Assembly: GCA_030549495.1 (NCBI GenBank)
Contig: JAUIRK010000106.1
Coordinates: forward strand, 1,537,461-1,601,460
DNA: 64,000 nt
Direction of reading: 5' to 3'
Source of the DNA: Nectonema munidae
Lineage: Eukaryota > Nematomorpha > Nectonematoida > Nectonematidae
Shown here: piece by piece, positions 10,680 through 64,000 of the stretch
Numbering within the stretch: the first letter of the stretch is position 1
Layout: every line of letters begins with the position of its first letter
Position numbers and translations under genes: made by a program
Notes under the pieces: model-generated
What the model saw: the letters and a program-made list of their open reading frames with translations, nothing else
The model's database searches: none
Told to the model about the DNA's origin: nothing

Positions 10680-10980
10680 CAACGAATACAGTAGTGCTGC
10701 CAGCGATCGGCATGTGTGTGTTTCTTTCTGTATGTTGTCTTTCAGTGTGTGTATTCTTTTTATTTCAGTTTTTATTCTTTATATTTGTATTTGTGTGTGT
10801 TTTGCGAGAAACGACCACGGGACCGGCTAGAGTTTTCATAATTATTTTGACTGTGCTGTCAGTTTAGAACAATATTTGTGTTTACATTTTACGATTCTTG
10901 TTTTTTTTAATCCGCCGATAATTCTATATTTTAATAATCTATCCGTGCATCTTGATTTGAGTAAAGTTTCGACCCCTGCC

Positions 10981-12909: not shown

Positions 12910-12929
12910 TTAACAATGAACTTTTAAAT

Positions 12930-13345
12930 ATAAATTGGGAAGACAATCATGTTAGGTCAACTGAAATCATCACGGACTCAGACATTGACATACAAATGAT
13001 TTTGCACTACCTTCTAATTTGAAACTTTTTCTTTTAAACATTTAGTCTCTAAAGATGAAGTTCACCCACCTTGAATTTTTCCTATAGGTATACATTCAAC
13101 CGGCTTATCTTTTGATGTTTTTATCCTACCTGGAATATGGCAATGTATAAATCTGTCAAGCATTCATATTCCAGGATTCAATGGGAAAAATAATATCATC
13201 TGTGACAATTTCAATATGAATTTGTTTTCAATTGAAACGAATGCTTGATTTTATTTCTTTACTTTGGCAACAAGGCTTAATTATGTGAACAACTTCTCTT
13301 GGTCACTTTATACGAAATCCATCATTACTAAAGTATTTCGTTTTT
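12930..13345 (+). pseudogene. Remnant of an apurinic-type endonuclease region, copy A
   Basis: Downstream of the ORF1-like gene, weak blocks in shifting frames resemble the start of a non-LTR ORF2. They include IHSTGLSFDVF followed by an ExW-like position, and ICDNFNMNLF, which resembles the GDFN motif of EEP endonucleases. The region is heavily mutated. No RT domain could be followed beyond 13345, so the element is truncated. Confidence 0.38.
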
Positions 13346-14260
13346 CGGGAATTTTTTAAGTTTAAAAAACACCTATCTTTAGACTCTATAAAATTGCAAT
13401 ATTATGCTTACATTTTCCTTCTTATTAAGTATACAAACCTTATCTCGGGCTCTTCTAACATCTCACTTCTTGATAAATTATATAAAACTCTTTAAATTTC
13501 ACATGTTTTTTTGTTACAAATCTGAATTATACATTTGTGAACTTAACGCTCTAATACAGTGCATCTTTTTCTATTATTGTACAACAAAGTATTCTCAGTT
13601 TTCAAAAATCTGCATTACAAATGAGAAACATCATTCTTACATTTTTTAGAATTAAATCTGGATCTACACTTCAAGTCACATATTTACAGAACAATAAATT
13701 CAATCAACTTCTTGAACAATAGTTTCGCCCTTTGGTTGCTACTATTTGTTCAAAAAATCTGTTACTTAAAAAATAAACTGTACTTAACACTATTATATAA
13801 TTCATTAATACTTACATAATCTGATAGAATCTTTTTCTTCACTCTAAATACCTAAAGCTCGTTTTAATATACTACTGTGGTATTTTGCATTTATTACTTT
13901 TAAATTTTCTATCATACTTATAAACCTTTATACACAACTTATTCCATATGACAATTATCTATAATCCTTACTTTTTTTACATCTGTGTTTCACTTTTATT
14001 TATTTATTTATTTTTCTTTTTCATTTTTTATTTCATTGCTATTTGATTTTTTTCGATTAATTAATCAGTAAAACATTTTCTTAATTTTTTTTCTTCCTAA
14101 ATCTTTCCTCTTCTTCCAAACCTACAAATCTTCTTGAATAATGAAGATAATCTTCCTGTAGAGTCGGAAACTTCAGAAACTATTAATTTTCTATTCATAT
14201 CTTTTTTTCACTACTATATGTCATAAGTGCAAAAATTTTTAATGAAATATACTACTACTA
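13346..14260. other. AT-rich stretch between the two retroelements
   Basis: It holds only short chance open frames, such as an 81-codon frame at 13404 with no recognisable motif. It may be decayed non-LTR sequence. Confidence 0.4.
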
Positions 14261-17200: not shown

Positions 17201-17268
17201 AAACTAAATGAAGAAGTCGAAGTAAGAATGAAGTCTGTTCTGAGCTGGTCGGAAGAGAACCTGTAATC
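14261..17268 (-). mobile_element. Penelope-like element with flanking direct repeats, copy A
   Basis: A ~97-bp direct repeat lies at 14261-14358 and 17172-17268 (ctgtgtcctttttcaa...gaagagaacctgtaatc). Between them, on the minus strand, lie Penelope-type RT and GIY-YIG coding remnants. Penelope-like elements often carry such direct terminal repeats (pLTRs), so I take these repeats as the element limits. Copy B of the big repeat has the same arrangement at 60717-63724. Confidence 0.78.
14875..16943 (-). pseudogene. Penelope-like RT plus GIY-YIG polyprotein, copy A
   Basis: Minus-strand blocks in order: an N-terminal basic region (16943-16662); the 157-codon stretch 16662-16189 with LADKGNCIVVLNKDDYIEKM; then IYGLAKIHKLGT and LRPILSYCNSPIYNISKYL (16130-16040), SLDAQSFFTSIPLD, YVRYVDDCLLL (the RT catalytic YVDD) near 15640, and FRKPTHTFRYLHFTSNH near 15430. 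Downstream, past a frameshift at about 15200 and one stop, NVIYQINCTKCPSIYIGM near 15000 is the GIY-YIG endonuclease core. Several frameshifts (16189-15605, an extra G near 15605, 15200) make it non-coding. The order RT then GIY-YIG is diagnostic for the family. Confidence 0.85.
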
Positions 17269-17501
17269 GGAATGATAAATAATTATATCTTTATATTTAA
17301 AATATAAAGTTTTAAATTCTTTATAATTTAATTTGAAATTAATAATTTATTTTAGATTTATGCTGAGAATAATTGTTCTACGTACTTATCTCACCCGCAA
17401 AAACTATATGTAATGTTTTCCGATTGATCATGTAAGCGGCTCATAGCCTTTCATTTTTCTTTACATCAATTTAGAAATGATTCCTTTCTATATGTATTCA
17501 C

Positions 17502-17855
17502 CAGGGCCGCACATCCGGGGAGTGAGAGGGGCGACGACTGCCCCCTCCTCAATGTCTTTCCGGGAAGAAAGGGGGGGGGGATGGGTGAAAATCCTATTTG
17601 CACCACAATAAATTTGGGGTTTTTAAACTAGTTTATATGCGTTATGTAAATTTAATTAAAATATTTTAGCTAAAAGTATAATTTTAAAATTTCAATTTTG
17701 GAAAAAAATGTAGTCTTCTAAATTCACGTATGCGCTGTATACACTCTATTTTAAAAGATTGCTGAATATTTGGTCTCCCGCGGTATTTTCAGAAAAGTAA
17801 TTTTGAAAATTGAAAAAAAAATCGCACTTAATAATATTGAGGATGGGCGCCCCTG
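17502..17855. mobile_element. hAT MITE with perfect target duplication
   Basis: GTATTCAC is directly repeated at 17494-17501 and 17856-17863. The termini CAGGGCCGCACATCC and GGATGGGCGCCCCTG are inverted. The 354-bp element has no coding capacity. The same terminal motif occurs at 30046, 31196 and 31485, and the window's right end enters the copy-B version. Confidence 0.88.
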
Positions 17856-45836: not shown

Positions 45837-46042
45837 ATTTCACTCAACGTTTTATCATACTTATCTCCGAATGATCTCTTAAAGTGTGCCTGTGTGTGTC
45901 AGAACTGGAAGTACATATCAAGCGATCCTTTGTTATGGAGGAAGAAGTGCGATGAGCAAAGTGTACAACAGGATGTGACGGATTTAACAGCTGAGTGCAT
46001 AGGCTTGCGCAACGATGAATGCATCAAGACGTGGAAGGCAGC
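45837..46042 (+). CDS. FBXW7-like gene, exon 6: F-box and linker
   Basis: The acceptor ctttttatactgctag (AG at 45835-45836) precedes ATT at phase 0, continuing directly from LPKE of exon 5. The translation contains ISLNVLSYLSPNDLLKCACV, then CQNWKYISSDPLLWRKKCDE, the F-box with the W..ISSD.LLWR.KC signature of FBXW7. It ends with a TWKAA(YI) block corresponding to the WKSAYI segment before the WD40 propeller. GC|GTATAT at 46042/46043 is a plausible donor; the retroelement array begins about 5 bp further on. The protein would be the substrate receptor of an SCF ubiquitin ligase, but the WD40 exons are not in this window, so completeness is unknown. Confidence 0.85.
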
Positions 46043-46047
46043 GTATA

Positions 46048-46429
46048 TTATGTTCATGCCAAACTTAAATTGTCCGGCAAACCTCTGTATGTCGACTTTC
46101 TCCGAGCTTTCCGGGAAGAAATCCTTGAAGATCTTAGAGTCTGCAACCTCCTGTATGTAGTCCAGAGAGGTCTTCTCAATCTTCTCAATCATTTTCATCA
46201 CAGCTTCAGACTGGCTAAACGTTAATTGGCCAAATATATCCAAGTCTTCTTTATCCTGGGATTGAGAGGCGTCTTTTGCTCTCTTCGAAGAAGGCTCTGG
46301 CCTCTCTGCATCCTGAACACTCTCTTCTGGGTTAGTCCACGTGAGGGTCTTATTGGAACTCTCATCCAATTCCTCTTCAGCATGAACGATGCTTTTTGAC
46401 TTCTTCTTGGAAGATCCAGAATCAGACAT
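46048..46429 (-). pseudogene. Antisense ORF of unit 1, truncated
   Basis: It keeps codons 1-127 of the 243-codon protein seen in units 2 and 3 (start MSDSGSSKKK at 46429). At 46048 the reading leaves the element and runs for about 50 more codons through the antisense of the F-box exon, which is meaningless. The C-terminal 116 residues are missing. Confidence 0.85.
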
Positions 46430-46553
46430 TGTTTGAATTTATGACGGCGTTATCTAAACAAACAGAGATTACTGAAAGATTTAAAGACTTTTTCAATAAT
46501 TTTATCAACTATAGTTTGACAGATTTAAGCGCTTTATTGTGTGTCGCACTTAA

Positions 46554-49115
46554 ATGCAGGTTATGGGAAGAACTCGTGCTCAATTGCAAATTCAAAATAA
46601 AGTCTACGATAATGTGGAGTTCTTGATTTTACCTAACTTGTGGAAAGAGGTCATCTTGGGAATTAGTTTTCTCAAAAGACATAAAGACATCACCATTGAA
46701 TTCCGTGGGAAAGAACCTTCTTTGGATTTCCAATATCACAGTGGAAACCTTGAAGCTCGTCATACATGTGCCACAAAGAACTCGAATGAAGTGAAACTTT
46801 TTAGATTCTTGTCTGCTAATTGTCGACCTCAGATAACAAGAACTAGAAAGTTCAGTGAAGATGATCAGCGATTTATACGAAGTGAAGTCCAGAGACTGCT
46901 GAAAGCTGGAGTTATTGAAGAATCCAATTCTCCATGGCGAGCTCAAGTTGTCCTTGTTCCCAAAACCGCCGGAGGGAAGAGAATGGTAGTTGACTTCTCA
47001 CGCACGATAAATAAGTTTACCTTAGCTGACGCCTATCCTTTGCCTGATGTAAATGAATTGGCACATAAAGTAGCCAAATTCAAATACTTCAGTTTAATTG
47101 ATCTTTCCGAAGCTTATTATCAAGTGGAACTGGGAAAAGACGAGCGAATGTACACTGGGTTTGAAGCTGACGGTAGACTTTATCAATTCACGAAAATTCC
47201 GATGGGAGTAACCAATGGGGCCTCTGCATTTCAGCGATACATCAATAACTTTATTTCGTTAAATAAACTTAGTGATACTTTTTCTTACATAGACGATGTA
47301 ATAATCTGTGGGAAGACTTTGGAGCAACACAATCGCAATCTAAAGTCTTTTCTTAACGCAGCCAATTCCTATCAACTAAACATCAATTGGAGCAAAAGTA
47401 AGCAAGGACTCGCATCTCTCAAGTTTCTTGGATATGAGATTGGTGATGGGGAGCTAAGGCCTGACAAGGATCGCATCAAACCTCTGACAGAAATGCCAAT
47501 ACCGCGAAGTTCTGCTGAATTGAAAAGAATGATGGGATTCTTCTCATATTACGCCAAATGGATTTCCAATTACTCCACGAAAGTTCAATCTCTAACAAAA
47601 GTGACCTCCTTTCCTCTAACCAACAGTCAAATAAAAGTAATTCACTCTCTCAAAGAAGAAATTGGTAGATCTGCTTTACACGCAACCAAGAGTGGTGTGC
47701 CATTCGTTGTGGAAACAGACGCTTCAGAGAAGACAATCGCCGCCTCACTCTTGCAAAATGGAAGGCCTGTAGCATTCTTTTCCAAAACTCTTAATCTAGC
47801 AGAAACCAAAGCACACATCGTGGAGAAAGAAGCTTACGCCATCATCGCATCGGTACGACACTGGAAGCACTTCCTAATTGGACAACACTTTACCGTAGTG
47901 ACGGACCAGAAAGCAGTTTCCTGCATTTTTAGCAATAATGGCAAGAACAAAATCAAAAACGACAAGATGCTTCGCTAGCGTTTGGAGTTAGCTTCATATT
48001 CCTTTGACATCAAGTATCGACCTGGAATCGACAATTTATCTGCAGATGCGTTATCACGTGCATGTTCAATTTCAAAAGACTCGACGAAGCTAAAAGAGCT
48101 GCATGACTCACTGATCCATCCTGGAGTGCGAAGAATGAGTCACTTTGTCAGAGAAAAGAACCTACCCTTTTCAATGGACGAAATAAAAGTGATGACAAAG
48201 AACTGCCAAGTCTGTTGTAAATGCAAACCAAGATTCTTCAAGTCTTACGGAGACCACATGGTAAAGTCTACAAAACCATTCGATAGACTATCTATCGACT
48301 TCAAAGGTCCTTTGCCATCAGAAACCAAGAACAAGTACATTCTCACTATCATTGACGAGTATTCTAGATTTCCATTTGCTTTTCCTTGCAAGGATACGAC
48401 GTCAACTACGGTAATAAAATGTTTGCAAGAAGTTTTTGCAATCTTTGGACTACCTAAATATGTACACTCAGATCGCGGGAGCTCATTTTTATCGAGTGAA
48501 CTTAAAACTTTTCTTTTAAGTAAAGGCGTAGCCTCGACTTTCACAACAGCTTATAATCCTCAAGGCAATTCTCAATGCGAAAGATACAACGGAATTATCT
48601 GGAAAACCGTCACTTTAGCAACAGAGACTCAAGGACTGCCCATCGAAAAATGGGAAGACGTTCTTCCAGATTGCTTGAATGCACTCCGAACACTTCTGAA
48701 CACATCAACTAATGAAACTCCGCATGAAAGATTATTTAAGTTTGAAAGAAACAGCGCCAACAATAAAGTTCCAGATTGGCTGTCTAATACAAAAACTGTT
48801 TGGATGAAGAAATTCCCTATCCCGTCGAAAGCAAAGCCTCAAGTGGAGTTAGTCGAACTTTTGGAAATTAATCCGCAATGCGCAAGGGTAAAATCGCAAA
48901 ATGGAAAGGAGAACACCGTGGCTCTCAAGCATCTTGCCCCCAACCAAACTGAAAAGGAATTAGAAGAAACCTCTTGCTCTGAATACACTAAGGATCCTTC
49001 TCCAAACGAAGAACCCAGCAACGGTGAAGAATCAAAAGTGGAAGCACCACACCTAAGAAGATCAACAAGGGAACGAAAGCCTGTCAAGAAATATGGCATA
49101 GACAATTCCCATTAG
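46554..49115 (+). pseudogene. Ty3-like pol of unit 1, TAG at codon 475
   Basis: The coding layout is identical to unit 3 (see 54060-56621) except for TAG at 47976-47978, where unit 3 has TGG, and Leu instead of Ile at codon 289. The stop separates the protease/RT/RNase H part (474 codons) from the end of RNase H and the integrase (377 codons from the next ATG-like start at 47982). Confidence 0.9.
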
Positions 49116-49125
49116 TGCGGAAGAT

Positions 49126-49429
49126 TGTATTATTCAAATAACCCTTCTTCATTATTATTATTATTACTATTATCATCATTTTTGTTTATAAACTTACACA
49201 TAATATCTTTTCATTTAACCATAATTATCTGTCATAGTTATATTTATTTTTGTCATTAATTATTTGTCATTAACACTTCTCTAAACATCACAATTCTTCT
49301 ATTCTATTAATATAGACTTTTCTTTTACTATGCAAATTCTTATATATATATATATATGTAGTTATGTCTTTTCACGCGCTATTTGTTGAATAAAAGCTCC
49401 AGCCTTTCAGATTCTTTCTATTCATCACA
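49126..49429 (+). repeat. Inferred LTR between units 1 and 2
   Basis: The LTR is taken from TGTATTATTC (49126, after a purine-rich GCGGAAGAT) to ...TTCATCACA (49429), giving TGT...ACA ends. It contains an (AT)n TATA-like stretch about 40 bp upstream of TGTTGAATAAAA, with the AATAAA signal within that motif. The left border is inferred; the right border is supported by the array end in unit 3. Confidence 0.65.
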
Positions 49430-49430
49430 A

Positions 49431-49442
49431 TTTTATTCAACA
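49431..49442 (+). promoter_or_regulatory. Putative self-primer binding site, unit 2
   Basis: TTTTATTCAACA, one base after the LTR, is the exact reverse complement of TGTTGAATAAAA inside the LTR (49384-49395), where the transcript is expected to begin. No tRNA-type TGG start is present. Tf1/sushi elements prime reverse transcription in this way with their own 5' end. On the minus strand the same bases give AATAAA, 14 nt past the antisense stop codon. Confidence 0.6.
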
Positions 49443-49450
49443 GCTTCAAT

Positions 49451-50182
49451 TTACTCTTCTTCGTCTTGGTAGTTTCTATAATCTTCCTTGAATCCCTTAG
49501 GATCGATTATAGATTTACACAAAGCAAATAAATACAATTCATTTGCAAACCACCTATCAGTTGAGAAGTAATGACAATAATTCTTCATACAATTTATGCC
49601 AATTCTTCCCACTGAGACAGCCGCCTTAGAGCCTTCAGCATTCATTTTATCAACAACAGTTCTAAGCATTTCTCTCTCCTCCTGATTCAAGCAGTGATAC
49701 AGAAGGACCAAGTAGAAGTTCTTCGCACTCCGATACAACTCTCCGCCCATACCCTTAACTGCATTTCTCAGATGTCTCGCCAAAGCCACACAGAACTCTG
49801 TTATGTTCATGCCAAACTTAAATTGTCCGGCAAACCTCTGTATGTCGACTTTCTCCGAGCTTTCCGGGAAGAAATCCTTGAAGATCTTAGAGTCTGCAAC
49901 CTCCTGTATGTAGTCCAGAGAGGTCTTCTCAATCTTCTCAATCATTTTCATCACAGCTTCAGACTGGCTAAACGTTAATTGGCCAAATATATCCAAGTCT
50001 TCTTTATCCTGGGATTGAGAGGCGTCTTTTGCTCTCTTCGAAGAAGGCTCTGGCCTCTCTGCATCCTGAACACTCTCTTCTGGGTTAGTCCACGTGAGGG
50101 TCTTATTGGAACTCTCATCCAATTCCTCTTCAGCATGAACGATGCTTTTTGACTTCTTCTTGGAAGATCCAGAATCATACAT
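49451..50182 (-). CDS. Antisense ORF of unit 2, 243 codons, unknown protein
   Basis: Identical to the unit 3 ORF apart from Ser2 changed to Tyr (MYDSGSS). See 53204-53935 for the description. The stop lies 8 bp from the putative primer-binding site, and the ORF is transcribed toward the LTR and away from pol. Confidence 0.7.
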   Translation of the reverse strand: MYDSGSSKKKSKSIVHAEEELDESSNKTLTWTNPEESVQDAERPEPSSKRAKDASQSQDKEDLDIFGQLTFSQSEAVMKMIEKIEKTSLDYIQEVADSKIFKDFFPESSEKVDIQRFAGQFKFGMNITEFCVALARHLRNAVKGMGGELYRSAKNFYLVLLYHCLNQEEREMLRTVVDKMNAEGSKAAVSVGRIGINCMKNYCHYFSTDRWFANELYLFALCKSIIDPKGFKEDYRNYQDEEE

Positions 50183-50306
50183 TGTTTGAATTTATGACGG
50201 CGTTATCTAAACAAACAGAGATTACTGAAAGATTTAAAGACTTTTTCAATAATTTTATCAACTATAGTTTGACAGATTTAAGCGCTTTATTGTGTGTCGC
50301 ACTTAA
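50183..50306. promoter_or_regulatory. Divergent spacer between antisense ORF and pol, unit 2
   Basis: The 124 bp separate the two divergent starts and would have to hold a promoter for the antisense ORF. The same sequence occurs in all three units. The + strand here also carries an ATG (50195) opening a short frame that overlaps pol in another phase. A cacttaaatgcag|G sequence just inside the pol ORF (acceptor AG at 50311-50312) could be a splice acceptor. Confidence 0.45.
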
Positions 50307-52868
50307 ATGCAGGTTATGGGAAGAACTCGTGCTCAATTGCAAATTCAAAATAAAGTCTACGATAATGTGGAGTTCTTGATTTTACCTAACTTGTGGAAAG
50401 AGGTCATCTTGGGAATTAGTTTTCTCAAAAGACATAAAGACATCACCATTGAATTCCGTGGGAAAGAACCTTCTTTGGATTTCCAATATCACAGTGGAAA
50501 CCTTGAAGCTCGTCATACATGTGCCACAAAGAACTCGAATGAAGTGAAACTTTTTAGATTCTTGTCTGCTAATTGTCGACCTCAGATAACAAGAACTAGA
50601 AAGTTCAGTGAAGATGATCAGCGATTTATACGAAGTGAAGTCCAGAGACTGCTGAAAGCTGGAGTTATTGAAGAATCCAATTCTCCATGGCGAGCTCAAG
50701 TTGTCCTTGTTCCCAAAACCGCCGGAGGGAAGAGAATGGTAGTTGACTTCTCACGCACGATAAATAAGTTTACCTTAGCTGACGCCTATCCTTTGCCTGA
50801 TGTAAATGAATTGGCACATAAAGTAGCCAAATTCAAATACTTCAGTTTAATTGATCTTTCCGAAGCTTATTATCAAGTGGAACTGGGAAAAGACGAGCGA
50901 ATGTACACTGGGTTTGAAGCTGACGGTAGACTTTATCAATTCACGAAAATTCCGATGGGAGTAACCAATGGGGCCTCTGCATTTCAGCGATACATCAATA
51001 ACTTTATTTCGTTAAATAAACTTAGTGATACTTTTTCTTACATAGACGATGTAATAATCTGTGGGAAGACTTTGGAGCAACACAATCGCAATCTAAAGTC
51101 TTTTCTTAACGCAGCCAATTCCTATCAACTAAACATCAATTGGAGCAAAAGTAAGCAAGGACTCGCATCTATCAAGTTTCTTGGATATGAGATTGGTGAT
51201 GGGGAGCTAAGGCCTGACAAGGATCGCATCAAACCTCTGACAGAAATGCCAATACCGCGAAGTTCTGCTGAATTGAAAAGAATGATGGGATTCTTCTCAT
51301 ATTACGCCAAATGGATTTCCAATTACTCCACGAAAGTTCAATCTCTAACAAAAGTGACCTCCTTTCCTCTAACCAACAGTCAAATAAAAGTAATTCACTC
51401 TCTCAAAGAAGAAATTGGTAGATCTGCTTTACACGCAACCAAGAGTGGTGTGCCATTCGTTGTGGAAACAGACGCTTCAGAGAAGACAATCGCCGCCTCA
51501 CTCTTGCAAAATGGAAGGCCTGTAGCATTCTTTTCCAAAACTCTTAATCTAGCAGAAACCAAAGCACACATCGTGGAGAAAGAAGCTTACGCCATCATCG
51601 CATCGGTACGACACTGGAAGCACTTCCTAATTGGACAACACTTTACCGTAGTGACGGACCAGAAAGCAGTTTCCTGCATTTTTAGCAATAATGGCAAGAA
51701 CAAAATCAAAAACGACAAGATGCTTCGCTAGCGTTTGGAGTTAGCTTCATATTCCTTTGACATCAAGTATCGACCTGGAATCGACAATTTATCTGCAGAT
51801 GCGTTATCACGTGCATGTTCAATTTCAAAAGACTCGACGAAGCTAAAAGAGCTGCATGACTCACTGATCCATCCTGGAGTGCGAAGAATGAGTCACTTTG
51901 TCAGAGAAAAGAACCTACCCTTTTCAATGGACGAAATAAAAGTGATGACAAAGAACTGCCAAGTCTGTTGTAAATGCAAACCAAGATTCTTCAAGTCTTA
52001 CGGAGACCACATGGTAAAGTCTACAAAACCATTCGATAGACTATCTATCGACTTCAAAGGTCCTTTGCCATCAGAAACCAAGAACAAGTACATTCTCACT
52101 ATCATTGACGAGTATTCTAGATTTCCATTTGCTTTTCCTTGCAAGGATACGACGTCAACTACGGTAATAAAATGTTTGCAAGAAGTTTTTGCAATCTTTG
52201 GACTACCTAAATATGTACACTCAGATCGCGGGAGCTCATTTTTATCGAGTGAACTTAAAACTTTTCTTTTAAGTAAAGGCGTAGCCTCGACTTTCACAAC
52301 AGCTTATAATCCTCAAGGCAATTCTCAATGCGAAAGATACAACGGAATTATCTGGAAAACCGTCACTTTAGCAACAGAGACTCAAGGACTGCCCATCGAA
52401 AAATGGGAAGACGTTCTTCCAGATTGCTTGAATGCACTCCGAACACTTCTGAACACATCAACTAATGAAACTCCGCATGAAAGATTATTTAAGTTTGAAA
52501 GAAACAGCGCCAACAATAAAGTTCCAGATTGGCTGTCTAATACAAAAACTGTTTGGATGAAGAAATTCCCTATCCCGTCGAAAGCAAAGCCTCAAGTGGA
52601 GTTAGTCGAACTTTTGGAAATTAATCCGCAATGCGCAAGGGTAAAATCGCAAAATGGAAAGGAGAACACCGTGGCTCTCAAGCATCTTGCCCCCAACCAA
52701 ACTGAAAAGGAATTAGAAGAAACCTCTTGCTCTGAATACACTAAGGATCCTTCTCCAAACGAAGAACCCAGCAACGGTGAAGAATCAAAAGTGGAAGCAC
52801 CACACCTAAGAAGATCAACAAGGGAACGAAAGCCTGTCAAGAAATATGGCATAGACAATTCCCATTAG
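50307..52868 (+). pseudogene. Ty3-like pol of unit 2, TAG at codon 475
   Basis: Same architecture as unit 3, with Ile at codon 289, but TAG at 51729-51731 in place of the Trp codon. It shares this stop with unit 1, so the two units derive from one another or from a common defective unit. Confidence 0.9.
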
Positions 52869-52878
52869 TGCGGAAGAT

Positions 52879-53182
52879 TGTATTATTCAAATAACCCTTC
52901 TTCATTATTATTATTATTACTATTATCATCATTTTTGTTTATAAACTTACACATAATATCTTTTCATTTAACCATAATTATCTGTCATAGTTATATTTAT
53001 TTTTGTCATTAATTATTTGTCATTAACACTTCTCTAAACATCACAATTCTTCTATTCTATTAATATAGACTTTTCTTTTACTATGCAAATTCTTATATAT
53101 ATATATATATGTAGTTATGTCTTTTCACGCGCTATTTGTTGAATAAAAGCTCCAGCCTTTCAGATTCTTTCTATTCATCACA
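52879..53182 (+). repeat. Inferred LTR between units 2 and 3
   Basis: Same sequence as 49126-49429. TATA-like run 53094-53110; TGTTGAATAAAA at 53137-53148. Confidence 0.65.
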
Positions 53183-53183
53183 A

Positions 53184-53195
53184 TTTTATTCAACA
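53184..53195 (+). promoter_or_regulatory. Putative self-primer binding site, unit 3
   Basis: TTTTATTCAACA, complementary to the LTR motif at 53137-53148, as in unit 2. It also supplies a minus-strand AATAAA (53185-53190) for the antisense ORF. Confidence 0.6.
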
Positions 53196-53203
53196 GCTTC
53201 AAT

Positions 53204-53935
53204 TTACTCTTCTTCGTCTTGGTAGTTTCTATAATCTTCCTTGAATCCCTTAGGATCGATTATAGATTTACACAAAGCAAATAAATACAATTCATTTGCA
53301 AACCACCTATCAGTTGAGAAGTAATGACAATAATTCTTCATACAATTTATGCCAATTCTTCCCACTGAGACAGCCGCCTTAGAGCCTTCAGCATTCATTT
53401 TATCAACAACAGTTCTAAGCATTTCTCTCTCCTCCTGATTCAAGCAGTGATACAGAAGGACCAAGTAGAAGTTCTTCGCACTCCGATACAACTCTCCGCC
53501 CATACCCTTAACTGCATTTCTCAGATGTCTCGCCAAAGCCACACAGAACTCTGTTATGTTCATGCCAAACTTAAATTGTCCGGCAAACCTCTGTATGTCG
53601 ACTTTCTCCGAGCTTTCCGGGAAGAAATCCTTGAAGATCTTAGAGTCTGCAACCTCCTGTATGTAGTCCAGAGAGGTCTTCTCAATCTTCTCAATCATTT
53701 TCATCACAGCTTCAGACTGGCTAAACGTTAATTGGCCAAATATATCCAAGTCTTCTTTATCCTGGGATTGAGAGGCGTCTTTTGCTCTCTTCGAAGAAGG
53801 CTCTGGCCTCTCTGCATCCTGAACACTCTCTTCTGGGTTAGTCCACGTGAGGGTCTTATTGGAACTCTCATCCAATTCCTCTTCAGCATGAACGATGCTT
53901 TTTGACTTCTTCTTGGAAGATCCAGAATCAGACAT
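53204..53935 (-). CDS. Antisense ORF of unit 3, 243 codons, unknown protein
   Basis: Starts MSDSGSSKKK at 53935 and ends DEEE at 53204. Residues 1-70 are Ser/Lys/Glu-rich, probably disordered, and include a basic SSKRAK patch. Residues 70-235 look folded and mostly helical, with aromatic and Cys-containing blocks such as FAGQFKFGMNITEF, ELYRSAKNFYLVLLYHCLN and RIGINCMKNYCHYFSTDRW. The tail is acidic. There is no zinc knuckle, signal peptide or clear membrane helix. It occupies the gag position but on the opposite strand. I do not recognise the family. A capsid- or nucleocapsid-like structural protein, a captured host gene, or an inverted gag are possibilities, none proven. The regular composition and the AATAAA just past its stop argue that it is a real gene. 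Confidence 0.7.
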   Translation of the reverse strand: MSDSGSSKKKSKSIVHAEEELDESSNKTLTWTNPEESVQDAERPEPSSKRAKDASQSQDKEDLDIFGQLTFSQSEAVMKMIEKIEKTSLDYIQEVADSKIFKDFFPESSEKVDIQRFAGQFKFGMNITEFCVALARHLRNAVKGMGGELYRSAKNFYLVLLYHCLNQEEREMLRTVVDKMNAEGSKAAVSVGRIGINCMKNYCHYFSTDRWFANELYLFALCKSIIDPKGFKEDYRNYQDEEE

Positions 53936-54059
53936 TGTTTGAATTTATGACGGCGTTATCTAAACAAACAGAGATTACTGAAAGATTTAAAGACTTTTTC
54001 AATAATTTTATCAACTATAGTTTGACAGATTTAAGCGCTTTATTGTGTGTCGCACTTAA
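53936..54059. promoter_or_regulatory. Divergent spacer between antisense ORF and pol, unit 3
   Basis: Counterpart of 50183-50306. The + strand ATG at 53948 opens a 61-codon frame (to 54132) that overlaps the pol ORF in a different phase (+1), which would allow a frameshift-type coupling. Alternatively, cgcacttaaatgcag|G just inside pol (AG at 54064-54065) may be a splice acceptor. Confidence 0.45.
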
Positions 54060-56621
54060 ATGCAGGTTATGGGAAGAACTCGTGCTCAATTGCAAATTCA
54101 AAATAAAGTCTACGATAATGTGGAGTTCTTGATTTTACCTAACTTGTGGAAAGAGGTCATCTTGGGAATTAGTTTTCTCAAAAGACATAAAGACATCACC
54201 ATTGAATTCCGTGGGAAAGAACCTTCTTTGGATTTCCAATATCACAGTGGAAACCTTGAAGCTCGTCATACATGTGCCACAAAGAACTCGAATGAAGTGA
54301 AACTTTTTAGATTCTTGTCTGCTAATTGTCGACCTCAGATAACAAGAACTAGAAAGTTCAGTGAAGATGATCAGCGATTTATACGAAGTGAAGTCCAGAG
54401 ACTGCTGAAAGCTGGAGTTATTGAAGAATCCAATTCTCCATGGCGAGCTCAAGTTGTCCTTGTTCCCAAAACCGCCGGAGGGAAGAGAATGGTAGTTGAC
54501 TTCTCACGCACGATAAATAAGTTTACCTTAGCTGACGCCTATCCTTTGCCTGATGTAAATGAATTGGCACATAAAGTAGCCAAATTCAAATACTTCAGTT
54601 TAATTGATCTTTCCGAAGCTTATTATCAAGTGGAACTGGGAAAAGACGAGCGAATGTACACTGGGTTTGAAGCTGACGGTAGACTTTATCAATTCACGAA
54701 AATTCCGATGGGAGTAACCAATGGGGCCTCTGCATTTCAGCGATACATCAATAACTTTATTTCGTTAAATAAACTTAGTGATACTTTTTCTTACATAGAC
54801 GATGTAATAATCTGTGGGAAGACTTTGGAGCAACACAATCGCAATCTAAAGTCTTTTCTTAACGCAGCCAATTCCTATCAACTAAACATCAATTGGAGCA
54901 AAAGTAAGCAAGGACTCGCATCTATCAAGTTTCTTGGATATGAGATTGGTGATGGGGAGCTAAGGCCTGACAAGGATCGCATCAAACCTCTGACAGAAAT
55001 GCCAATACCGCGAAGTTCTGCTGAATTGAAAAGAATGATGGGATTCTTCTCATATTACGCCAAATGGATTTCCAATTACTCCACGAAAGTTCAATCTCTA
55101 ACAAAAGTGACCTCCTTTCCTCTAACCAACAGTCAAATAAAAGTAATTCACTCTCTCAAAGAAGAAATTGGTAGATCTGCTTTACACGCAACCAAGAGTG
55201 GTGTGCCATTCGTTGTGGAAACAGACGCTTCAGAGAAGACAATCGCCGCCTCACTCTTGCAAAATGGAAGGCCTGTAGCATTCTTTTCCAAAACTCTTAA
55301 TCTAGCAGAAACCAAAGCACACATCGTGGAGAAAGAAGCTTACGCCATCATCGCATCGGTACGACACTGGAAGCACTTCCTAATTGGACAACACTTTACC
55401 GTAGTGACGGACCAGAAAGCAGTTTCCTGCATTTTTAGCAATAATGGCAAGAACAAAATCAAAAACGACAAGATGCTTCGCTGGCGTTTGGAGTTAGCTT
55501 CATATTCCTTTGACATCAAGTATCGACCTGGAATCGACAATTTATCTGCAGATGCGTTATCACGTGCATGTTCAATTTCAAAAGACTCGACGAAGCTAAA
55601 AGAGCTGCATGACTCACTGATCCATCCTGGAGTGCGAAGAATGAGTCACTTTGTCAGAGAAAAGAACCTACCCTTTTCAATGGACGAAATAAAAGTGATG
55701 ACAAAGAACTGCCAAGTCTGTTGTAAATGCAAACCAAGATTCTTCAAGTCTTACGGAGACCACATGGTAAAGTCTACAAAACCATTCGATAGACTATCTA
55801 TCGACTTCAAAGGTCCTTTGCCATCAGAAACCAAGAACAAGTACATTCTCACTATCATTGACGAGTATTCTAGATTTCCATTTGCTTTTCCTTGCAAGGA
55901 TACGACGTCAACTACGGTAATAAAATGTTTGCAAGAAGTTTTTGCAATCTTTGGACTACCTAAATATGTACACTCAGATCGCGGGAGCTCATTTTTATCG
56001 AGTGAACTTAAAACTTTTCTTTTAAGTAAAGGCGTAGCCTCGACTTTCACAACAGCTTATAATCCTCAAGGCAATTCTCAATGCGAAAGATACAACGGAA
56101 TTATCTGGAAAACCGTCACTTTAGCAACAGAGACTCAAGGACTGCCCATCGAAAAATGGGAAGACGTTCTTCCAGATTGCTTGAATGCACTCCGAACACT
56201 TCTGAACACATCAACTAATGAAACTCCGCATGAAAGATTATTTAAGTTTGAAAGAAACAGCGCCAACAATAAAGTTCCAGATTGGCTGTCTAATACAAAA
56301 ACTGTTTGGATGAAGAAATTCCCTATCCCGTCGAAAGCAAAGCCTCAAGTGGAGTTAGTCGAACTTTTGGAAATTAATCCGCAATGCGCAAGGGTAAAAT
56401 CGCAAAATGGAAAGGAGAACACCGTGGCTCTCAAGCATCTTGCCCCCAACCAAACTGAAAAGGAATTAGAAGAAACCTCTTGCTCTGAATACACTAAGGA
56501 TCCTTCTCCAAACGAAGAACCCAGCAACGGTGAAGAATCAAAAGTGGAAGCACCACACCTAAGAAGATCAACAAGGGAACGAAAGCCTGTCAAGAAATAT
56601 GGCATAGACAATTCCCATTAG
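54060..56621 (+). CDS. Ty3-like pol: half protease, RT, RNase H, integrase (intact frame)
   Basis: 853 codons. Residues 1-60 match only the C-terminal half of a retropepsin (ILPNLWKEVILGISFL); the DTG active-site half is absent and an in-frame TAA precedes the ATG. RT spans about 95-300, with LIDLSEAYYQ (Asp183) and SYIDDVII (Asp247/Asp248). RNase H spans about 380-475, with VVETDASEKT and DNLSADALSR just beyond. The integrase has a zinc motif (His517, His522, Cys551, Cys554) and DDE residues at IDFKG (Asp582), HSDRG (Asp640) and CERYNG (Glu676). The C-terminus ends RRSTRERKPVKKYG, a tail common in Ty3-type pols. All RT, RNase H and integrase catalytic positions I can see are kept. It would need gag and a complete protease from elsewhere. 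Confidence 0.92.
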   Translation: MQVMGRTRAQLQIQNKVYDNVEFLILPNLWKEVILGISFLKRHKDITIEFRGKEPSLDFQYHSGNLEARHTCATKNSNEVKLFRFLSANCRPQITRTRKFSEDDQRFIRSEVQRLLKAGVIEESNSPWRAQVVLVPKTAGGKRMVVDFSRTINKFTLADAYPLPDVNELAHKVAKFKYFSLIDLSEAYYQVELGKDERMYTGFEADGRLYQFTKIPMGVTNGASAFQRYINNFISLNKLSDTFSYIDDVIICGKTLEQHNRNLKSFLNAANSYQLNINWSKSKQGLASIKFLGYEIGDGELRPDKDRIKPLTEMPIPRSSAELKRMMGFFSYYAKWISNYSTKVQSLTKVTSFPLTNSQIKVIHSLKEEIGRSALHATKSGVPFVVETDASEKTIAASLLQNGRPVAFFSKTLNLAETKAHIVEKEAYAIIASVRHWKHFLIGQHFTVVTDQKAVSCIFSNNGKNKIKNDKMLRWRLELASYSFDIKYRPGIDNLSADALSRACSISKDSTKLKELHDSLIHPGVRRMSHFVREKNLPFSMDEIKVMTKNCQVCCKCKPRFFKSYGDHMVKSTKPFDRLSIDFKGPLPSETKNKYILTIIDEYSRFPFAFPCKDTTSTTVIKCLQEVFAIFGLPKYVHSDRGSSFLSSELKTFLLSKGVASTFTTAYNPQGNSQCERYNGIIWKTVTLATETQGLPIEKWEDVLPDCLNALRTLLNTSTNETPHERLFKFERNSANNKVPDWLSNTKTVWMKKFPIPSKAKPQVELVELLEINPQCARVKSQNGKENTVALKHLAPNQTEKELEETSCSEYTKDPSPNEEPSNGEESKVEAPHLRRSTRERKPVKKYGIDNSH

Positions 56622-56631
56622 TGCGGAAGAT
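56622..56631 (+). promoter_or_regulatory. Putative polypurine tract
   Basis: TGCGGAAGAT directly before the inferred LTR start. It is short and only partly purine, so the assignment depends on the inferred LTR border. Confidence 0.35.
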
Positions 56632-56935
56632 TGTATTATTCAAATAACCCTTCTTCATTATTATTATTATTACTATTATCATCATTTTTGTTTATAAACT
56701 TACACATAATATCTTTTCATTTAACCATAATTATCTGTCATAGTTATATTTATTTTTGTCATTAATTATTTGTCATTAACACTTCTCTAAACATCACAAT
56801 TCTTCTATTCTATTAATATAGACTTTTCTTTTACTATGCAAATTCTTATATATATATATATATGTAGTTATGTCTTTTCACGCGCTATTTGTTGAATAAA
56901 AGCTCCAGCCTTTCAGATTCTTTCTATTCATCACA
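56632..56935 (+). repeat. Inferred 3' LTR, right end of the array
   Basis: Same sequence as the two internal LTRs, with a TATA-like run at 56847-56863 and TGTTGAATAAAA at 56890-56901. It stops at TTCATCACA, after which the duplicated ~7-kb segment begins at 56936. This sharp stop at a CA dinucleotide is the best evidence for the LTR's right border. Confidence 0.72.
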
Positions 56936-57368
56936 GCTACCATAAAGAAATTCTTATGATAAAAATTTTGGATAAAGTAAAAATTAGAAAAAACTAAATG
57001 ATCCGCGGATAGGATGTAAAAATTTTTGCGTGCGAAGATTATATCTGGCATCAAAGAGCAACGAATACAGTAGTGCTGCCAGCGATCGGCATGTGTGTGT
57101 TTCTTTCTGTATGTTGTCTTTCAGTGTGTGTATTCTTTTTATTTCAGTTTTTATTCTTTATATTTGTCTTTGTGTATTTGTGTGTGTTTTGCGAGAAACG
57201 ACCACGGGACCGGCTAGAGTTTTCATAATTATTTTGACTGTGCTGTCAGTTTAGAACAATATTTGTGTTTTCATTTTACGATACTTTTTTTTTTTTAATC
57301 CGCCGATAATTCTATATTTTAATAATCTATCCGTGCATCTTGATTTGAGTAAAGTTTCGACCCCTGCC

Positions 57369-58510
57369 ATGTCGAACAAATTAAAAAGAACATTGAAGGA
57401 AGAAAATAGAGCCTTTTGATGAATGGGAATTACAATATTTTGTATCAAATAATGGTAAAATGCAATGCTTGCTATGTTAAACAGTAAAGAAATACAATGC
57501 AAATCAGCATTATTATACTAATAAGGACAATAAACACGCGAAATTAGAAGGTGAGTCTCGAACTATTGCATTTAAAAAGTTAAAAGAGGGAAAACAAAAG
57601 CTATTTTTTCATAAAGTGATACATCCAAAAAAAGATAGGACTGAGGCCAATTTCAAAGTTACATTTTTGCTTGGAAGAATGGTAAGCCTATTAGCGATGC
57701 GGAGTTAATAAAGGGGTGTGTTATGAGGTTGTAAGATGCTAAGATCCAGATTAAGGTTAATAAATATAAAGATACACCTCTTTCAAGAAGAACTATTACC
57801 GATCGTCAGCATGAATTTGCCCAAAACGTAACAGACTAGTTAACAAACATAATTCAAAAAGACACTACCTATTATTCTGTAGTTTTCGATGAATCAAGAG
57901 ATGCAACTGATTTCTCACACGTATTGTATTTTGTTCGTGCTATAACTGCAGAATTTGATGTATATGAGAAATTGCTTGGTTTTTAGGGAGGACAAGGTGA
58001 ATTGATGTTTTCAACGATTTCAAAGAGAGATTTCGTGAAAATGTCTAAATTTCGCATATAGTGAGCGTGTGCACAGATTCTCCTCTATGTATGACTGAAA
58101 AATGAAGGATTCGTTGCACATCTCAAATAAGAACTTGTAAATAATAATGCTCTTATTTCCTATTGCATTTTACATCAACTAAATCTCTGTGCAAAATTTG
58201 TCATTCTCGATGACGCTTTGAAAAAAGTTGTGGGTATTGTAAACTTTATCCAAATTTGTCATTCTCGATGACGTTTTGAAAAAAGTTGTGGGTATTGTAA
58301 ACTTTATCCAAATTTGTCATTCTCGATGACGTTTTGAAAAAAGTTGTGGGTATTGTAAACTTTATCCGAGCAAATTCTATGAGGCATCGCCAGTTTCGAT
58401 ACATGCTCTTGCTCATGTTGGATGATGAGATCATCAGTGTAGATTTGCCTTAGCATTGAAAAGTGCGCTGGTTATCACAAGGGCAAATCTTAATTAAAAT
58501 TTTTGAATAA
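57369..58510 (+). pseudogene. Dead hAT transposase (GTF2IRD2/ZBED5-like), copy B
   Basis: Same blocks as 10981-12055, starting MSNKLKRTLKEENRAF. The N-terminal zinc region is slightly better preserved (GKMQCLLCYVNSKE). It carries three copies of the 58-bp duplication. Confidence 0.75.
58194..58367 (+). repeat. 58-bp tandem repeat, three units
   Basis: Units start at 58194, 58252 and 58310. The first has gacgC and the others gacgT, as in copy A, so the extra unit is a duplicate of the second type. Confidence 0.95.
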
Positions 58511-59365
58511 TATTTATGAATCGCTTAAGGATGTGAACAATAGTTTTACAGAGTCGCTTAAAAAGACACCTTCCTACGCATCTATAACCTCACAAAATGT
58601 CTCAGGTGAAATAAGTCACCTTTTGACCCATTCAAATAAAGTGATAATAAACAGTAAAACTTTCCTATTATATAAACTAAAAATCAAGCATTACAAAAAA
58701 ACTAAAGATAATTCACTCATTCGTGAAACTCTAACAACTGAGTGCCTTACTAATCTAAAGAATTATCTTAACCAACAAGGCTTGAAATTCGAACATTTTA
58801 GAAGAGTCTTATCTTTTGTCTTAAAGGTATTGACAAGGCTCTTTCCATTGATGAAATCAAAAATATAATTTTGAGTCAAAATAATATTAATTCAAAAGAC
58901 ATTTCCAATATCTTTAAATTTTCAAATTATAACGAAAAGTATTGTAAGGTTGGCATTGAATTTACTCAAAAAATAGTGAAATCTATATTTTTAAATAAAC
59001 ATATCTTCGTTCATTGTAAGACTCATGATATGGAATTATTACGTAGCTTCGTTAAAACTTGTGCAAAATGTAATAAATACAATCACTATCATAAAGATTG
59101 TAAGTCATCTAATTATATTTATAAATTTTGTGGTCTTGACAATGAATCAAATAAGTGTAATAAAAATAAAAATTATACTTCATTTTGGAAAAATTGTGAA
59201 GATAACAAGCTTGCTTTTAATCACTCTTGTAACTCTAAGAATTGCTATACTTTACTTAAATTGAAAGAGCATCGAGATTACTTGAACAAAAGCTATCTCA
59301 CTTCTATAGTCAATAACCACAATTTGTACCGGACCTTGATTTTATACATATCTCTAATGATTTAA
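58503..59365 (+). pseudogene. Non-LTR ORF1-like protein with zinc knuckles, copy B
   Basis: As 12047-12909, with the same frameshift between its halves (58503-58868 and 58871-59365). It differs by a few residues (CEDNKLAF instead of CEDKKLDF). Confidence 0.62.
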
Positions 59366-59385
59366 TTAACAATGAACTTTTAAAT

Positions 59386-59800
59386 ATAAATTGGGAAGAC
59401 AATCATGTTAGGTCAACTGAAATCATCACGGACTCAGACATTGACACACAAATGATTTTGCACTACCTTCTAATTTGAAACTTTTTCTTTTAAACATTTA
59501 GTCTCTAAAGATGAAGTTCACCCACCTTGAATTTTTCCTATAGGTATACATTCAACCGGCTTATCTTTTGATGTTTTTATCCTACCTGGAATATGGCAAT
59601 GTATAAATCTGTCAAGCATTCATATTCCAGGATTCAATGGGAAAAATAATATCATCTGTGACAATTTCAATATGAATTTGTTTTCAATTGAAACGAATGC
59701 TTGATTTTATTTCTTTACTTTGGCAACAAGGCTTAATTATGTGAACAACTTCTCTTGGTCACTTTATACGAAATCCATCATTACTAAAGTATTTCGTTTT
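59386..59800 (+). pseudogene. Endonuclease-region remnant, copy B
   Basis: Same decayed blocks as 12930-13345 (ICDNFNMNLF). No RT domain follows. Confidence 0.38.
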
Positions 59801-60716
59801 TCGGGAATTTTTTTAAGTTTAAAAAACACCTATCTTTAGACTCTATAAAATTGCAATATTATGCTTACATTTTCCTTCTTATTAAGTATACAAACCTTAT
59901 CTCGGGCTCTTCTAACATCTCACTTCTTGATAAATTATATAAAACTCTTTAAATTTCACATGTTTTTTTGTTACAAATCTGAATTATACATTTGTGAACT
60001 TAACGCTCTAATACAGTGCATCTTTTTCTATTATTGTACAACAAAGTATTCTCAGTTTTCAAAAATCTGCATTACAAATGAGAAACATCATTCTTACATT
60101 TTTTAGAATTAAATTTGGATTTACACTTCAAGTCACATATTTAAAGAACAATAAATTCAATCAACTTCTTGAACAATAGTTTCGCCCTTTGGTTGCTACT
60201 ATTTGTTCAAAAAATCTGTTACTTAAAAAATAAACTGTACTTAACACTATTATATAATTCATTAATACTTACATAATCTGATAGAATCTTTTTCTTCACT
60301 CTAAATACCTAAAGCTCGTTTTAATATACTACTGTGGTATTTTGCATTTATTACTTTTAAATTTTCTATCATACTTATAAACCTTTATACACAACTAATT
60401 CCATATGACAATTATCTATAATCCTTACTTTTTTTACATCTGTGTTTCACTTTTATTTATTTATTTATTTTTCTTTTTCATTTTTTATTTCATTGCTATT
60501 TGATTTTTTTCGATTAATTAATCACTGAAAGATTTTCTTAATTTTTTTCTTCCTAAATCTTTCCTCTTCTTCCAAACCTAAAAATCTTCTTGAATAATGA
60601 AGATAATCTTCCTGTAGAGTCGGAAACTACAGAAACTATTAATTTTCTATTCATATCTTTTTTTCACTACTATATGTCATAAGTGCAAAAATTTTTAATG
60701 AAATATACTACTACTA

Positions 60717-63700
60717 CTGTGTCCTTTTTCAAGAGAATAGGAGTAAAACTAGATGAAGAAGTCGAAGTAAGAATGAATTCTGTTGTGAGCTGGCCAGAAG
60801 AGAACATGTAATCTGCTTAGTCGATTAGAAGTGTGGCTGGGTTTAGATGTGATCGAAGGGGATTTGATGGAGGTAACGAGTATTAGTCTTCAAAACTAAC
60901 CGGAAGGATCATTGATAAAGGTTGGTACTAATCTGATTAGGAAAATTTTTCACTGGAGAGAAATGAAAGGTGCAAAGTGTGTGTATATAATGAACACTAA
61001 AATAATAATATAGCGTATATATTTATGTGTATGTTAGTGTATAAAGCATGTATATATGCAAGTGTGTGAATAAATGTACATTGATTCGCCTTTTACGAAG
61101 TTCAGTATAACAATATCCCTATTCTTTTGCCGGGGATATACGGCGTTGTACATATGTATGTGTTTACAAGAAAAGTAATGGTATGTACGTTGTTGGAAAA
61201 CACTGTGACCTATTAATGCAATTTTTCTGTTTCGTTCAATAGAATGACTCTAAAAAAGGGAATAGCGTTGGATCATTTGATTTGCACAATATACTAGTAC
61301 TATCAAAATCAAACGAAAGATATATCTTATATATGTGCAACTAAATGAGAAGGATGTGAAGAACTCGAAAAGTCTTTTAATATGTTTTGTCTGTGGTTAT
61401 AAATGCGTAAAGAGAGGGGATCGGTTGTCATGCCTATGTAGATTGATGGACATTTAGTACAATTTATTTGATATATCACATTTTTAGCTTTGTATTTATC
61501 ATAAACCTCATATTAATTCTGCTTGAACACAATCTTCAGTTGATTTTCAGGTTTAAAAATTATAGACACATCATATTTGTCAAAAACTTTTTTTCGCTTA
61601 TTGTAAACTTTTATGTTTGTGTCTATAGTAATTATAGGTTTATAAGATTTATCTAGACCAAATTTTTAAAATATTTCTCTGATTGGAAAGAATTATTAAC
61701 TATATCTGAAGATATTTTCAAAGCTCTATTGATTGAACTTGCAGGGTAAGCATTTTGTTTTAATACATAAACTATTTTAGCGGTTTCAGCCCTACAAGTT
61801 TCATCGTCATTTGTGATTGCCAAATTTTGATTAAACAAACTAATAGGGGTAGACATTTTCTGGTTGTAAATATGATTGCTTGTGAAATGTAAATATCTAA
61901 AAGTATGTGTAGGTTTACGAAAAACTTTGAACTTAAAAATGTCATTTACTCTAATAATTTTACAATCTAAAAACGCCATCGAATTATCATTCTCTACTTC
62001 TAAAGTGAATTTCAATCGTTCGTGGAATGAATTAAATTGTTCTCTCAGAGTTTCTACCGGTGAAAAAGGCATCAATAATAGGCAGTCGTCAACATACCTT
62101 ACATAAAAATCTGGTTGAATTGGGGAACTAAGGAAATTAGAATTTTCGCATTGTTCTAAAACAATATTGGCAATAGGTACACTGCAAGGATTTTCCATTG
62201 CAGTACCTTCTACTTGGTGATAAATTTCCTTCGTAAAAGTAAAATAATTATTCTTAAAGATTACTTAGATAAGTTACAAAATATCATTTTTAGTTAGCTT
62301 AGTGTGTTTTAACAAAGTGTCCTCATCATCCAAAAGATTATCTAACGAGGACATAGCGGGATCTAAAGGTATGCTAGTGAAAAAGGATTGTGCATCCAAA
62401 CTTACCAAAACCTTGTTCATATCATGTCAAAATTTCTTAAACCGATTAATAAAATCACGAGTGTTTTCAACGGCGTACCCTTTTTTGTTAACAATATATT
62501 TGATAAATACTTAGATATGTTATAAATTGGGCTATTACAATAGCTTAAAATAGGTCGGAGAGGGGTACCAAGTTTATGTATCTTAGCGAGGCCATATATG
62601 TGTGGATAATAAAAAAAATTGGAATGAAAATGTTCATATTCTTTTTATGAAATTTTATTACTTTTGAGGAGCTTGAACACCAAGGCATTGAATTTCTTTT
62701 CTGTAGTGGATAAAGGGTTCGCATTTCTTCTACTAATCTTTCTATACGAAGTTTTGTCATTTAACAGATTGCCCATTTTTTCTATATAATCATCTTTATT
62801 CAAAACTACGATACAATTGCCTTTGTCAGCGAGTGTAACATGTAGAGATGGGTCATTTTTCAACTTTTTTAAAGATTTTGCTTGATTCATGCTAATGTTT
62901 GAATAAAAGTAAGGGATGTCTTTCAGAATCCTCACTATTTCATAACTCATCACTTCTTTGTCCATTTCTTCATAATTATTAATATTTCCCTCAACTTGGA
63001 CCAAAAATTTCTTTTTATCGAAGTTCTTGTTACAAATATTGTATTTTAGACAATACTTTAAAACATTTTCTTCATCTTTGGACAGTTTTTTTCTTGAGAT
63101 CATTTGAACTTTTGTCATCAGCCTGGAGCGTTAACTTGAAAGTGTATAGAGTTTTTCTTATCTAAGAGATATTGTCTTTTATCATGTATTCTTGAGTTAA
63201 GTCGTTCAAGGATATTATGAGATAATGTAGAAGTAAGTGTATCTTTTGTAGAATGGAGCTTGGAAAAGGAATGCTGGAGTTGAGAATAAAGTCTTTCTAA
63301 ACGTTTCCTCTTACATTTCCAGATAAAATTTATGTATAACTTGTGAAATTCAGGATGGAAAAAGGTTTTATTCTTAATTTTGATCTCTTTAGGAAACAAT
63401 TTTCTGTATAATGATATTATAAAATTTGATCAAGGACTTTAAACTAGAAATCTTTAAAATAGTTTTTTCGTATAACCTTGAAATTTTTAGCACATCCATG
63501 CCATACTCAAGATCGATAATAAAAAAATGTAAGTTGGGTGATTCATTTGTACTATATAATTGTATATAAAACGGAAAAAGGAATCAAAATTTATTGAAAA
63601 AAAATTTTCAAATATTTTCGAACACAACTGTGTCCTTTTTCAAAAGAATAGGAATAAAACTAAATGAAGAAGTCGAAGTAAGAATGAAGTCTGTTCTGAG

Positions 63701-63724
63701 CTGGTCGGAAGAGAACCTGTAATC
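60717..63724 (-). mobile_element. Penelope-like element with flanking direct repeats, copy B
   Basis: Direct repeats at 60717-60813 and 63628-63724 correspond to 14261-14358 and 17172-17268. Internal coding order is as in copy A. Confidence 0.78.
61330..63399 (-). pseudogene. Penelope-like RT plus GIY-YIG polyprotein, copy B
   Basis: Same blocks as copy A. It lacks the single inserted G found near 15605 in copy A. The RT core is therefore open over 181 codons (62198-61653), including ANIVLEQCENSNF, YVRYVDDCLLL and FRKPTHTFRYLHF. Upstream frames 63399-63118 and 63118-62645 are also open. The stretch between 62645 and 62200 is frameshifted, and the GIY-YIG part (NVIYQINCTKCPSIYIGM, about 61460) is separated by a frameshift at about 61655 and a stop. 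Confidence 0.85.
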
Positions 63725-64000
63725 GGAATGATAAATAATTATATCTTTATATTTAAAATATAAAGTTTTAAATTCTTTATAATTTAATTTGAAATTAATA
63801 ATTTATTTTAGATTTATGCTGAGAATAATTGTTCTACGTACTTATCTCACCCGCAAAAACTATATGTAATGTTTTCCGATTGATCATGTAAGCGGCTCAT
63901 AGCCTTTCATTTTTCTTTACATCAATTTAGAAATGATTCCTTTCTATATGTATTCACCAGGGCCGCACATCCGGGGAGTGAGAGGGGCGACGACTGCCCC

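Follow-up and report, generated by a model that had tools for sequence, protein, structure and literature searches.

An array of gag-less Ty3-like elements in Nectonema munidae that probably captured a foreign mRNA during reverse transcription

Introduction

What is an intact antisense gene doing beside the LTR of a Ty3-like retrotransposon, in the place where gag should be? We asked this of a tandem array in the genome of Nectonema munidae, which lies in a 64,000-nucleotide stretch of contig JAUIRK010000106.1 (assembly GCA_030549495.1, positions 1,537,461 to 1,601,460). This whole stretch is hereafter called the window, its contig C87, and the antisense gene asp. The first-pass annotation had proposed an ambisense element that may make its structural protein from an internal divergent promoter. 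Our analysis leads us to another reading, which we consider fairly probable: the array is a gag-less derivative of a self-primed Ty3-like element that captured a foreign mRNA, probably a viral one, during reverse transcription.

Results

The array occupies positions 46048..56935 on the plus strand. With a period of 3,753 bp, it consists of two full units (46048-49800 and 49801-53553) and a third (53554-56935) that closes at the 3' LTR, all arranged head to tail and differing among themselves at 3 positions. Each unit carries pol on the plus strand (46554..49115, 50307..52868, and 54060..56621 for units 1, 2, and 3). In unit 3, pol is an open frame of 853 codons with the C-terminal part of the protease, RT, RNase H, and integrase; units 1 and 2 each contain one in-frame TAG. 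A domain profile search recovered RT, RNase H, the integrase core, H2C2, and only the C-terminal part of the aspartic protease, whose active site is gone together with gag. The three LTRs (49126..49429, 52879..53182, and 56632..56935, plus strand) are identical, 304 bp long, and bounded by TG...CA; their true limits were set by the LTRs of two ordinary copies, C568 and C570, which they match. On the minus strand, asp forms an ORF of 243 codons between units 1 and 2 (49451..50182) and in unit 3 (53204..53935), divergent from pol with 125 bp between them. A further copy (46048..46429) keeps its 5' part only, cut by the left end of the array at 46048. The repeat, the Ty3-like pol, and the intact antisense ORF beside the LTR thus hold at the coordinates given by the first-pass annotation, and its description of a full pol stands for RT, RNase H, and integrase but not for the protease or for the two interrupted frames. 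A divergent regulatory structure in the 125-bp gap was also considered and dropped, since we read the leader there as a captured end.

The flank from position 56936 is paralogous to 10557-17544, a stretch without the element (95.7% identity over 1,386 columns plus 99.4% over 5,751 columns), and the similarity starts exactly at the end of the right LTR. The paralogue therefore represents the empty site, and on the right the array ends in a regular LTR joint. On the left the sequence has been rearranged: there is no LTR, and the array opens within asp and directly adjoins an exon-like stretch. With this end lost, neither a target-site duplication nor an intact chimeric copy can be read from the array. 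The exon-like stretch (45838-46047), which runs into the array's left edge, has the look of an F-box by eye. The near-identical stretches 10557-17544 and 56936-64000 lie 46 kb apart, the second reaching the contig end, and are either a tandem duplication or an assembly overlap. A broken Penelope-like RT, recognized by eye, lies on the minus strand at 61500-63200, near the contig end.

Is asp a real gene? A search of the same genome gave 23 matches, and the best copies outside the array are 63-74% identical at the protein level. We computed pN and pS for 17 of 45 asp pairs; the four comparisons that involve the window copy (with C138, two C66 copies, and C147) gave a pN of 0.15-0.23 against a pS of 0.87-0.97. 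Given these matches and a pN well below pS, asp is not a chance ORF, and the claim that a real antisense gene stands where gag should be is borne out. asp is under purifying selection between diverged copies, a pattern that fits equally well a gene that evolved in a virus. Searches of a protein collection that may hold few invertebrate RNA viruses, and of Pfam, NCBIfam, and PDB sequences, returned no relative of asp. AlphaFold2 models reached a pTM of 0.56 for the full protein and 0.71 for residues 60-243, with the first third poorly predicted and the remainder all-helical. Fold searches with these models, which are of moderate quality, found no relative. A search of the genome for a bunyavirus polymerase gave no match, although the control was silent too. 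An RNA-virus nucleoprotein or matrix protein would agree with the size of asp, its helices, and its abundance as mRNA.

How are related elements built? The window pol gave at least 58 matches in the whole genome; 53 of 1,471 first-look candidates were scored, so all of these counts are lower bounds. At least 24 loci outside the window (hand count, split matches joined) carry a pol that is 97-100% identical, and at least 6 have a frame of 1,198 codons, with no stop within the match in C568, C218, and C700. In C568, the extra 345 codons encode a sense Gag that starts at MEKAVRPKEF and has two CCHC knuckles, plus the protease with VDTGS; the protease active site is thus seen in this ordinary copy, and the Ty3/gypsy order protease-RT-RNase H-integrase is found in a single pol frame. 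C570 has LTRs on both sides and a 5-bp repeat, AATAC, at both ends. Two TG...CA LTRs and a target-site duplication in the 4- to 6-bp range are therefore found in C570, whereas the 5' side of the window array is lost. C570 also has a deletion of ∼540 bp in gag, so a copy with defective gag exists beside intact ones, and Gag may have been supplied in trans by a helper.

Sense gag stands upstream of pol in C568, whereas the array has antisense asp instead. The exchanged segment is a cassette of 862 bp (53196..54057, minus strand) with asp and its leader, which replaces gag and the protease active site. It begins after the LTR plus 13 nt and ends before AAATGCAG in the protease, where the ordinary sequence resumes; an ordinary copy has 997 bp from the end of the LTR to AAATGCAG. 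The asp leader and the Ty3 sequence are separated by 9 nt (54049..54057, minus strand). The array LTRs are 99.0-99.1% identical to the 5' LTR of C570 and 98.7% identical to its 3' LTR; over the ordinary copies, the figures are 98.7-99.7% for the LTRs and 97-100% for pol. The LTR identities indicate that the array is young. A DNA search of the assembly (which may be incomplete) with the cassette gave ten matches, three in the array and the others at 70-71%, and no second source. A tandem pair of a pol relative that is 68% identical, with a spacing of 3,854, is present in C43 (1280-7686), so LTR-sharing arrays are not peculiar to the chimera.

We then asked about the joint between the LTR and the cassette. 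The 13 bases that follow the LTR, ATTTTATTCAACA, are common to the array and to ordinary copies and form the primer-binding site (53183..53195, and 49430..49442 between units 1 and 2; plus strand). Its reverse complement, TGTTGAATAAAAT, matches the LTR over a 12-base stretch that lies downstream of a TATA-rich run, and none of 5000 shuffled LTRs reached this 12-nt match. For Tf1/Tj1, the primer-binding site is described as matching, in complement, the start of the mRNA that the element itself makes, which lies in the LTR (PMC4600332). Judged from its sequence, the window element would be self-primed in the same way, in another Ty3 lineage than Tf1/Tj1 and with a predicted mRNA start; under self-priming, the mRNA of the ordinary element would be expected to start at TGTTGAATAAAA. 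The cassette with asp begins exactly at the end of this primer-binding site. The AATAAA just past the asp stop, which had been taken for the gene's own signal, is part of the reverse complement of the primer-binding site and is shared with ordinary copies.

Does the same joint occur elsewhere? At C138 (L032), asp is 63% identical to that of the window, and the Ty3 pieces are 39-46% identical to the window's in the matched parts. The order there is the end of integrase, a purine-rich stretch, a 355-bp LTR, a 12-base primer site (ATTTATTGCACA) that is likewise complementary to its own LTR, antisense asp truncated close to its end, a piece of RT in antisense, and finally a zinc knuckle and protease in sense, an order expected from serial template jumps. 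This LTR was assigned by position, as it has no second copy in the 9.9 kb read. asp and the primer site join at TGTGCAA, which matches the end of the primer site; asp relatives have TGTGTAA or TATGTAA. At C78 (L043), an asp of another subfamily is cut after the KNFFLV codons at TGTGC, where its near relatives in C218 and C261 read TTGTGCTAATG, and runs into a primer site and LTR of the C138 type (98.3% identity over 172 bp, reaching part of U3). Only part of the LTR is present in C78, and no Ty3 pol turned up in its vicinity. The joints thus fall at the last base of the primer site in C87, C138, and C78, with different donors and breakpoints, which argues that the growing end was the 3' end of plus-strand strong-stop DNA.

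These joints bear on two other explanations. In the first, the least probable of those we weighed, no reverse-transcription chimera formed: truncation or insertion brought a Ty3 element next to an asp copy already present, and tandem duplication of the two followed. That the array is tandem, has its left edge cut inside asp, and has a right flank paralogous to a stretch 46 kb away would agree with such a history, yet it would require that in three cases (C87, C138, and C78) asp just happened to begin at the very end of the primer site, with the microhomologies TGTGCAA and TGTGC. In the second, antisense asp is a regular functional gene, structural or accessory, of an ambisense Ty3 lineage and has been conserved between C87 and C138. 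We regard this as very unlikely. The order is indeed the same in C87 and C138 (LTR, primer site, antisense asp, protease), and asp is under purifying selection, but the nearest relatives of the C87 pol carry a sense gag in one frame with pol and lack asp, the asp sequences are cut at different residues in the C138 and C78 joints, and C138 has an inverted RT piece and a deletion. Moreover, the assembly search placed the C87 chimera at one locus only, and asp was found in unrelated contexts. The first-pass annotation had itself named related elements with an ordinary sense gag and a lack of purifying selection as signs against its proposal: the former exist, whereas asp does show such selection. 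An ambisense family arrangement does not agree with these data, and the idea that asp is the element's structural protein, made from an internal divergent promoter, finds no support in them.

If capture of a foreign mRNA is the better reading, what was the source of that RNA? asp copies in six unrelated contexts start with ACACAATAA-G-GC. In the window, the conserved first bases, ACACAATAAAGCGC, lie at 54035..54048 on the minus strand, 113 nt before the ATG. The same start is found in C138, in C66 (three copies), and in C74, and the copies in C10, C78, and C218 start with ACACAATAACGAGC. Within the ACACAATAAAGCGC group, the distance from start to ATG is 113-119 nt where measured (window, C138, and C66). 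Upstream of the asp start, the sequence is unrelated in the six contexts, with C66 and C74 counted as one. The nine rows of this 5' alignment were picked for having the leader; asp copies in C147, C595, C65, C141, and C142 lack the common start, and those in C559 and C261 have a variant start. Of 14 occurrences of ACACAATAAMGMGC in 211.6 Mb, 11 lie at asp copies, against 2 occurrences of the reversed control, and the three other sites show no asp-like ORF by eye. In C218, an asp start follows directly on a truncated asp, as a jump from an RNA end to an internal position would give. The asp stop is followed by 7-8 A in C66 and C74 and by AATAAA and 9 A in C559, so the donor was probably polyadenylated.

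A donor absent from the assembly and independent insertions that share a common RNA end are marks of endogenous non-retroviral RNA viruses, and both are found here. Since diverged copies have the same abrupt 5' end and no donor locus is present in the assembly, an exogenous RNA virus is the most likely source of the asp mRNA. As far as sequence comparison can tell, exogenous RNA is the best fit for the source of the cassette, and we infer the viral nature and type of the donor from this fit. A more specific proposal is plausible but tentative: asp would be the major gene, nucleoprotein- or matrix-like, of an RNA virus lineage not yet described, with mRNAs that begin with ACACAATAA. It would have been endogenised six times or more, and three or more of these events (C87, C138, and C78) would have followed one repeatable route, in which plus-strand strong-stop DNA of self-primed Ty3 elements primed on viral mRNA through the end of the primer site.

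The same template switch could have taken up a transcript that was not viral, from a host gene or another retroelement, and we consider this origin rather unlikely. In its favor, several asp copies adjoin RT sequences, DIRS-like or other, that lie in sense orientation; a canonical AATAAA and an A-run are present in C559; and our searches found no viral homologue of asp. Against such a donor, the capture is recent (LTRs 98.7-99.7% and pol 97-100% identical to ordinary copies), yet the assembly contains no parent above 70% DNA identity, and the RT flanks vary from copy to copy whereas the 5' start of asp is constant. The neighbors of the other asp loci (DIRS-like, Helitron, or other RT sequences) lie in sense orientation, which suggests that capture routes differ.

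Discussion

How might a foreign mRNA have entered the element? We infer the order of the steps as follows. The LTR and the primer-binding site would first have been copied as plus-strand strong-stop DNA, ending at the last base of the site. Instead of being transferred, this DNA would have paired by a few bases with the asp mRNA and been extended on it, so that asp would come to lie in antisense orientation right behind that site. On reaching the 5' terminus of the mRNA (ACACAATAAAGCGC...), synthesis would have jumped to the protease region of Ty3, with the loss of gag. After integration, the 5' LTR and the left flank would have been lost and the product repeated in tandem through its LTR.

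A viral gene inside an LTR element is an already known kind of chimera. In the nematode Bursaphelenchus xylophilus, eBxnv-1 is described as a nodavirus RdRp between the LTRs of a BEL/Pao element with primer site, PPT, and pol and without gag, and its authors propose copy-choice during reverse transcription (PMC5177903). eBxnv-1 and the window array are thus alike in having a foreign gene in a gag-less LTR element. They differ in that eBxnv-1, as reported there, is a single BEL/Pao element with a recognizable RdRp and a degenerate pol, whereas the window array is Ty3-like and putatively self-primed, has an open pol and an orphan antisense gene, and is joined at the end of the primer site. That 2016 paper knew of one earlier natural virus-retrotransposon chimera (PMC5177903). 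In Aedes, sequences of non-retroviral RNA viruses are integrated among Ty3/gypsy elements, with template switching invoked, and the bunyavirus-like gene AeBunya1 is embedded in a full-length Pao-Bel element (PMC5497376). The Aedes cases, as presented in that paper, are mostly a neighborhood of virus and element, in contrast to the exact chimeric joints of the window. ORFs antisense to gag-pol are known inside LTR elements of the Retand type; these are described as plant elements in which pol is separated from the 3' LTR by a long stretch (PMC11963269), whereas in the window the antisense gene is of external origin and occupies the place of gag. A literature search on antisense or ambisense gag in LTR elements found no such case. 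What is new here is the orphan gene, its antisense placement, and the exact joint to a putative self-primer, repeated at three loci. Few natural chimeras of virus and retrotransposon have a readable joint, and the joints described here are clear-cut enough to say when capture likely took place. They also suggest that a retrotransposon can swap gag for a foreign gene in a single step, and the conserved 5' end together with an intact protein offers a handle for finding an unknown virus lineage.

We also considered asp as the gag of a hepadna-like (HEART) or DIRS relative, on the basis of asp homologues in C65, C141, and C142 that lie just upstream of sense RT/RNase H pieces, and dropped this idea because the neighbors differ between loci. 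Troyka, with termini described as CG...CG (PMC12440569), is not similar. The pieces themselves (C65, L041 3987-4940; C142, L044 5437-6231; C141, L045 3742-4671) have a hepadna- or DIRS-like look, and their family is represented in the genome by 125 matches, several of them arranged in tandem (C676, C35, and C715). In C147 (15500-25400; L036), a tandem of ∼4,296 bp alternates truncated asp with a DIRS-like RT on the same strand. A compound stretch present in four copies in C66 and C74 (L033-L035 and L037) combines asp with a DIRS-like pol and with ORFs that look Helitron-like by eye; this is an asp insertion multiplied together with its surroundings. Many of the asp loci in C10, C65, C66, C74, C78, C87, C138, C141, C142, C147, C218, C261, and C595 lie within ∼40 kb of a contig end, which could reflect a subtelomeric or repeat-rich habitat or mere breaks in the assembly.
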